From Micromonosporaceae bacterium (GTDB lineage Bacteria > Actinomycetota > Actinomycetes > Mycobacteriales > Micromonosporaceae), in NCBI GenBank assembly GCA_009380105.1, contig WHSM01000009.1, positions 1-32,634 of the forward strand: DNA of 32,634 nt, given 5' to 3'. Below the pieces are notes generated by a model. That model saw nothing but the letters and a program-made list of their open reading frames with translations. It had not been told where the DNA came from and searched no databases. Position 1 is the first letter of the stretch. The number at the start of each line of letters is the position of its first letter. The position numbers and the translations under genes were made by a program. Below, one piece after another: positions 30,287 through 31,080 of this stretch.

Positions 30287-30769
30287 ATGACCGAGACTGC
30301 TCCCGTCCGCCTCGCCGAAGGTGACGCGGCCCCCGATTTCACACTTGCCACCGACTCCGGCGACACCCTGCGCCTGGCCGACCTGCGAGGTCGCACGGTG
30401 CTGCTGTACGCGTACCCCGCCGCGATGACGCCCGGCTGCACCAAGCAGGCGTGCGACTTCCGCGACTCGCTGGCCTCTCTGAAGGCGCAGGGGTACGAGG
30501 TCGTCGGCATCTCCCCCGACAAACCGGAGCGGCTGGCGACGTTCCGCGAACGGGACTCGCTGACGTTCCCGCTGGTCTCCGACCCGGACAAGCAGGTGCT
30601 GACGGCCTACGGCGCCTACGGCGAGAAGATGAACTACGGCCGCAAGACCATGGGCGTGATCCGCTCCACGTTCGTGATCGGTGAGGACGGCAGGATCGCC
30701 AAGGCGATGTACAACGTCAAGGCCACCGGCCACGTGGCGAAGCTGCGCCGCGACCTCGGCCTGGACTGA
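30287..30769 (+). CDS. bcp: Thioredoxin-dependent peroxiredoxin (BCP)
   Basis: GDAAPDFTLATDSGDTLRLADLRGRTVLLYAYPAAMTPGCTKQACDFRD. Confidence 0.94.
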   Translation: MTETAPVRLAEGDAAPDFTLATDSGDTLRLADLRGRTVLLYAYPAAMTPGCTKQACDFRDSLASLKAQGYEVVGISPDKPERLATFRERDSLTFPLVSDPDKQVLTAYGAYGEKMNYGRKTMGVIRSTFVIGEDGRIAKAMYNVKATGHVAKLRRDLGLD

Positions 30770-30837: not shown

Positions 30838-30912
30838 GGGGCCGTAGCCCAACTGGCAGGAGGCACGCGGTTTAGGTCCGCGACAGTGCGAGTTCGAGTC
30901 TCGCCGGCCCTA
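30838..30912 (+). tRNA. tRNA with UAG anticodon (nominal Leu) but short variable loop
   Basis: Acceptor GGGGCCG/CGGCCCT, D arm GCC..GGC, anticodon arm CGCGG-TTTAGGT-CCGCG, variable loop ACAGT, T arm GCGAG-TTCGAGT-CTCGC, discriminator A, CCA not encoded. Confidence 0.8.
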
Positions 30913-30967
30913 CTAAAGATTCCTGGCAGGGGTTGTAGGTTGACCCTCTTGCTGTGAAGGAGTCTGT

Positions 30968-31080
30968 GATGCCCGTCCCCAGCGATCCCGGTCGAGGTGA
31001 AGGCCCGGGTCGTGCTCAGCGTGTTCGCCGGTGAGACGACCGTGGCTGAGGCGGCTGGCCGGACAAGGTCTCTGAGAGAC
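30968..31080 (+). pseudogene. frameshifted N-terminal transposase/HTH remnant
   Basis: MPVPSDP then, in another frame, PVEVKARVVLSVFAGETTVAEAAGRTRSLRD, which reads like the start of a transposase HTH domain. Confidence 0.5.

Follow-up and report, generated by a model that had tools for sequence, protein, structure and literature searches.

A class I tRNA-Leu(UAG) as the probable only CUA-dedicated tRNA of a Micromonosporaceae genome, in a chromosomal place shared with the class II form

A long variable arm is regarded as a constant hallmark of tRNA-Leu, and its presence serves as an annotation check. A 2023 review reports that only animal mitochondria lack this arm in tRNA-Leu and tRNA-Ser, with recognition of the mitochondrial tRNA-Leu via A73 and A14 (PMC9976931). 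In Escherichia coli, leucyl-tRNA synthetase (LeuRS) relies on A73, A14, the A15-U48 pair, G18G19 and A20a, and a truncated tRNA-Leu without the long arm is still active (PMC9976931). A tRNA-Leu(TAG) whose variable loop is short has been described in a tRNA cluster of the Mycobacterium mucogenicum clade, as an extra copy beside the normal class II gene (PMC6582537). In tRNA-dependent lysogeny, a phage tRNA can stand in for a host tRNA gene, as for the tRNA-Leu-CAA of phage Gaia, which supplants the host tRNA-Leu gene (PMC10865867). Here, a class I, short-armed tRNA-Leu(UAG) gene is described near the end of a 32,634-nucleotide stretch of DNA from a Micromonosporaceae bacterium (contig WHSM01000009.1, hereafter the window). 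This gene very probably encodes a working chromosomal tRNA, charged by the ordinary LeuRS and serving as the sole dedicated CUA tRNA, which has repeatedly replaced the class II form behind the peroxiredoxin gene bcp.

Compared with the bacterial class II tRNA-Leu(UAG), the window tRNA has the same anticodon, A14, A15-U48, G18G19, D-loop AAYNGGCAGA and A73, and often the same place behind bcp, whereas it carries 5 nt instead of the long arm, a D-stem GCC/GGC instead of GCG/CGC, other acceptor stems and A9 instead of G9. The long arm is also absent from animal mitochondrial tRNA-Leu, which is organellar, whereas the present tRNA is a full bacterial cloverleaf found beside class II isoacceptors and a single LeuRS. 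The M. mucogenicum tRNA, compared by description only, has the same shape and anticodon but accompanies a normal gene, whereas here the class I gene is the sole UAG isoacceptor found. The Gaia tRNA (84 nt) lies within an integrated prophage, as opposed to a clean gene swap; because it is class II, it was not accepted as a demonstration of host-gene replacement by a class I Leu tRNA. No report of a class I tRNA-Leu as sole or standard isoacceptor was found in a literature search that left out most subscription journals. By its sequence, the short-armed bacterial tRNA-Leu described here contradicts the restriction to animal mitochondria stated in the review.

ARAGORN calls a tRNA-Leu (tag) at 30838-30913, and Rfam family RF00005 matches 30838-30912 over its full length, well above its gathering score of 29 (E-value 3.3e-8). 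This is the sole Rfam match, and the sole Rfam tRNA, in the 32.6-kb window, which holds no cluster of many tRNAs. As read from the sequence, the acceptor GGGGCCG/CGGCCCT comprises six Watson-Crick pairs and G1-U72, the D-stem is GCC/GGC, the anticodon stem CGCGG/CCGCG closes a 7-nt loop TTTAGGT with G37, and the T-arm reads GCGAG-TTCGAGT-CTCGC. A15 (30852) pairs with U48 (30887), CCA is not encoded at the 3' end, and there is no G3-U70 pair. The variable region is shorter than the long arm of at least 10 nt that marks a class II tRNA-Leu, and the 7-bp acceptor and 5-bp T-stem differ from the 8/4 or 9/3 architecture of allo-tRNAs. The gene encodes an intact cloverleaf with the anticodon UAG and 5 nt in the variable region. 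A preliminary description of this DNA, made from its letters, had the coordinates and the anatomy right, including A15, U48, G37 and the T-loop.

Table 1. Coordinates of the class I tRNA-Leu(UAG), its parts and the gene marking its locus
Feature	Position in window	Strand	Evidence
Class I tRNA-Leu(UAG) gene	30838..30912	+	ARAGORN; Rfam RF00005, 50.7 bits; homologues; covariation
Anticodon TAG, reads CUA	30873..30875	+	Sequence; ARAGORN position 36; loop TTTAGG conserved among class I UAG homologues
Variable region ACAGT, 5 nt, ends in U48, replaces class II long arm	30883..30887	+	Sequence; CAGTG almost invariant in family alignment
D-arm GCCCAACTGGCAGGAGGCA: A14, A15, G18G19, C20 A20a, reported E. 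coli LeuRS determinants	30847..30865	+	Sequence compared with PMC9976931
Discriminator A73	30912	+	Sequence; invariant in alignment
bcp (AhpC/TSA peroxiredoxin), upstream neighbour marking the locus	30287..30769	+	Pfam PF00578, E 8.9e-39

Relatives of this tRNA occur in members of the same order and are widespread in Actinomycetota. When 61 relatives were searched at the DNA level, about two dozen genomes proved to carry a class I tRNA-Leu(UAG), at 84-93% identity. Weaker matches were to class I Leu tRNAs whose anticodons are GAG, CAG or CAA; several of these lie in tRNA arrays. A pattern scan of GTDB contigs gave, among the matches listed, at least 119 in Actinomycetota, from at least 11 named orders including Acidimicrobiales, and one odd host-chromosome match outside this phylum. 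The latter, in a metagenome-assembled genome of Sphingobacteriales (L091, 3001-3100), is a class I Leu-like tRNA with surplus bases in the T-arm region and no ARAGORN call.

In an alignment of 30 diverse members, 99.5% of the cells hold standard pairs, and 17 of the 20 pairs show two-sided changes. Shuffled alignments have 11.7 such pairs, none of 500 shuffles reaching 17, and slid controls are also far lower. Acceptor stems vary widely with matching partners (GGGGCCG, GCGCCCG, GCCGACG, GCACCTC), and A14, A15, G18, G19, A20a, U48 and A73 are invariant in the 30 homologues. The D-arm TAGCCCAA-GGCAG-AGGC and CAGTG are constant across class I homologues, a constancy partly built in because the scan pattern preselects these motifs; likewise, the anticodon-loop motif TTTAGG was itself used in the homologue scans, so that its retention is partly preselected. 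An inactive pseudo-tRNA, named in the preliminary description as the outcome that would undo its proposal, would show broken pairing and no conservation, and it is ruled out by the wide conservation and strong covariation. Short-armed Leu tRNAs form a distinct family, with anticodons UAG, UAA and CAA, and also GAG, CAG and AAG.

Each genome seems to hold one UAG gene of either class. In the window's own genome, the CAA, TAA, GAG and CAG Leu tRNAs are class II, and UAG was found as class I only. A pattern search allowing one mismatch found no class II UAG gene in eight complete or near-complete class I genomes, whereas eight complete or near-complete genomes without the class I gene carry the class II one, seven of them identified by pattern loci (G001, G003, G004, G014, G024, G032, G048) and G010 by its fetched locus. 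The check for a normal tRNA-Leu(UAG) proposed beforehand thus reveals two mutually exclusive forms in complete relatives. In one genus, which the named members of the scan suggest to be Micromonospora, each of 61 species has exactly one UAG gene, of class I in 12 and of class II in 49; stray pattern matches were checked, and two of them (G386:C4:1799604 and G492:C1:1249235) were discarded as not being tRNAs. The class I tRNA is accordingly predicted from gene content to be the sole CUA reader of the cell.

In some genomes, other isoacceptors are class I as well. A covariance model applied to 15 genomes separates class I Leu tRNAs, at 72 bits or more, from all other tRNAs, at about 62 bits at most. 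Six complete or near-complete genomes from three families (G037, G038, G039, G052, G053, G054; for G039, loci L232 and L240) have class I tRNAs for each of UAG, UAA and CAA, and G034 has them for UAG and CAA. The class II Leu tRNAs found in G038 and G039 are GAG and CAG only.

The meaning of CUA was read from strongly conserved sites, with CTA masked and one frame per region. In class I genomes, 34 of 35 such CTA sites align to Leu, as do 16 of 18 in other genomes, and the controls TTA, TTG and CTT are also mainly Leu in the same alignment test. On this alignment evidence, CUA stands for leucine in class I genomes. One LeuRS scores above the family cut-off in each of 24 genomes (matched as two pieces in all), and no column of the LeuRS alignment was found to separate 15 class I from 8 class II genomes. 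All the E. coli-type determinants listed above are present in the window tRNA. As the determinant bases are invariant in the family and the long arm is dispensable in E. coli, charging by the normal LeuRS would be the simplest reading: the enzyme would leucylate the class I tRNA via A73, A15-U48 and the D-loop/T-loop hinge, the long arm not being needed. The preliminary description had supposed that the tRNA might be mischarged or used outside canonical translation, which does not agree with CTA sites aligning to Leu, intact determinants and the finding of no other tRNA-Leu(UAG). As a separate observation, the LeuRS of two genomes (L294 in G426, L288 in G052; 816-905 aa) stand clearly apart on the tree from the long form of the others, regardless of tRNA class, and KMSKS is seen in the outlying LeuRS of G426.

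The tRNA starts 68 bases after the bcp stop codon. A bcp gene lies upstream on the same strand for 73 of 146 class I and 4 of 7 class II tRNA-Leu(UAG) calls, and the ortholog survey next to bcp suggested earlier therefore places both classes behind this gene. On a tree of bcp with 900 upstream bases (1.4 kb), six switches within the genus are counted for six class I species, and species of the two classes are each other's closest relatives. A tree of bcp with 39 rows gives nine such switches, at least eight being forced by starred branches, a number about equal to that for random labels. In the sister loci L259 (class II) and L261 (class I), flanks identical at 92.7% and 96.4% surround the replaced cassette; identity ends 466 and 150 bases, respectively, before the tRNA and resumes 28 and 47 bases after it, so that a cassette of about 0.3-0.6 kb was exchanged, presumably by recombination. 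The class I gene thus trades its chromosomal place repeatedly with the class II form, which in Actinomycetota it replaces as a whole cassette.

Similar tRNAs are found in phages. In an annotated phage collection, the UAG form has 208 matching records, including a few of class II; a Moraxella phage match proved on examination to be class II as well. ARAGORN confirmed class I Leu tRNAs in phages GodonK, Finemlucis, Gabriela, BeanWater, Manuel and Francob, as well as in F2M1E (Enterobacter), SunLIRen (Erwinia), Moogle (Citrobacter), LpeD (Lactobacillus) and BUCT-ZZ01 (Synechococcus). The hosts of the carriers span several phyla, and the core TAGCCCAAYTGGCAGAGGCA is often common to these tRNAs. 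Because phages carry the same kind of tRNA, and host chromosomes outside Actinomycetota gave one odd match, phages may be a reservoir of short-armed Leu tRNAs. In several phages (L316 1497-2019, L317 1-671, L364 1-200, Sixama NC_070762.1), HNH endonuclease genes, perhaps homing endonucleases, adjoin class I tRNA-Leu or are close to it. In LpeD (L364 607-678), ARAGORN calls a tRNA whose type is undetermined and whose anticodon has four bases (tttg).

Two other explanations compete with a working, leucine-charged replacement. A reassigned CUA, the short-armed tRNA carrying another amino acid in the manner of yeast mitochondrial tRNA-Thr(UAG), has a precedent in the CUN reassignment of yeast mitochondria, which involves an unusual UAG tRNA (PMC7609411). 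It is already contradicted and retains a negligible probability, as the CTA sites of class I genomes resemble those of the others, G3-U70 is absent, the 7-nt anticodon loop is normal, A73 and A15-U48 are kept, and class I and class II species are nearest relatives. A surplus or decaying tRNA that a mobile element left behind, with the normal tRNA-Leu(UAG) located elsewhere, would be in keeping with the relatives in phage arrays, a relative adjoining an integrase on a Tsukamurella plasmid record, the Mycobacterium cluster in which a short-loop tRNA-Leu(TAG) occurs alongside the normal one (PMC6582537), and the downstream side of the window tRNA, where no intact known gene and no Pfam match among the open reading frames were found. 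It is nevertheless very improbable given the one-per-genome exclusivity in complete genomes, the covariation, the conserved place behind bcp and a search of the window for att-like repeats of the tRNA 3' end, which found none. Thus, the idea of a mobile-element tRNA for CUA put forward in the preliminary description stands insofar as the tRNA decodes CUA and is closely related to tRNAs of phages and of tRNA arrays, whereas here it is not an extra copy but occupies the chromosomal place of the class II gene.

As for the cause of the swaps, selection against tRNA-targeting nucleases (VapC type, PrrC type or colicin-like), the short form being resistant, would add to the replacement by class I genes rather than supplant it. 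Phage tRNAs have been proposed to escape anticodon nucleases (PMC10264068), tRNA arrays of M. avium have been termed putative antidefence units (PMC12803027), and switching is very frequent at one locus. Such a cause is rather unlikely, since none of these nucleases was linked to tRNA class in this analysis and the loop UUUAGGU is identical in many class II tRNA-Leu(UAG) genes; enzymes reading only the loop would therefore not be evaded. A broader scenario, in which phage-borne short-armed Leu tRNAs repeatedly invaded actinobacterial chromosomes, displacing class II forms for UAG, CAA and UAA (three of five isoacceptors being class I in some families), with conflicts involving phages, integrases or tRNA-cutting toxins sustaining the swapping, is possible and put forward tentatively, the balance leaning against it.

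Several points weigh against a working class I replacement charged by the ordinary LeuRS. Transcription, charging and decoding in these genomes are predictions from sequence. The determinants were established for the E. coli enzyme, from which that of actinobacteria could differ, and the set of LeuRS compared is small, with 15 versus 8 genomes. As the window's own assembly is fragmented (632 contigs, 94% complete), the absence of a class II UAG gene is weaker evidence there than in complete relatives. Either class could be ancestral in Actinomycetota, and the class I gene may have come from a phage or another lateral source.

If this replacement reading is correct, a large part of a bacterial phylum would use short-armed Leu tRNAs as sole isoacceptors, offering a natural experiment on tRNA recognition by LeuRS. 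It would also call for caution with isotype models, which would flag such genes, and it provides a case of an essential tRNA gene, common to phages too, swapped wholesale among near relatives.

Some minor observations concern the rest of the window and G386. At 2775-2864 of the window, inside a likely coding sequence, ARAGORN reports a 90-nt minus-strand tRNA-Asp; it is probably false because Rfam gives nothing there. In G386, about 4.4 kb absent from the genus-mates compared lies between the class I tRNA and conserved downstream sequence (L242 5128-9600). Just 3' of the window tRNA, at 30985-31080, a frame resembles the helix-turn-helix start of a transposase (EVKARVVLSVFAGETTVAEAAG), apparently a remnant.
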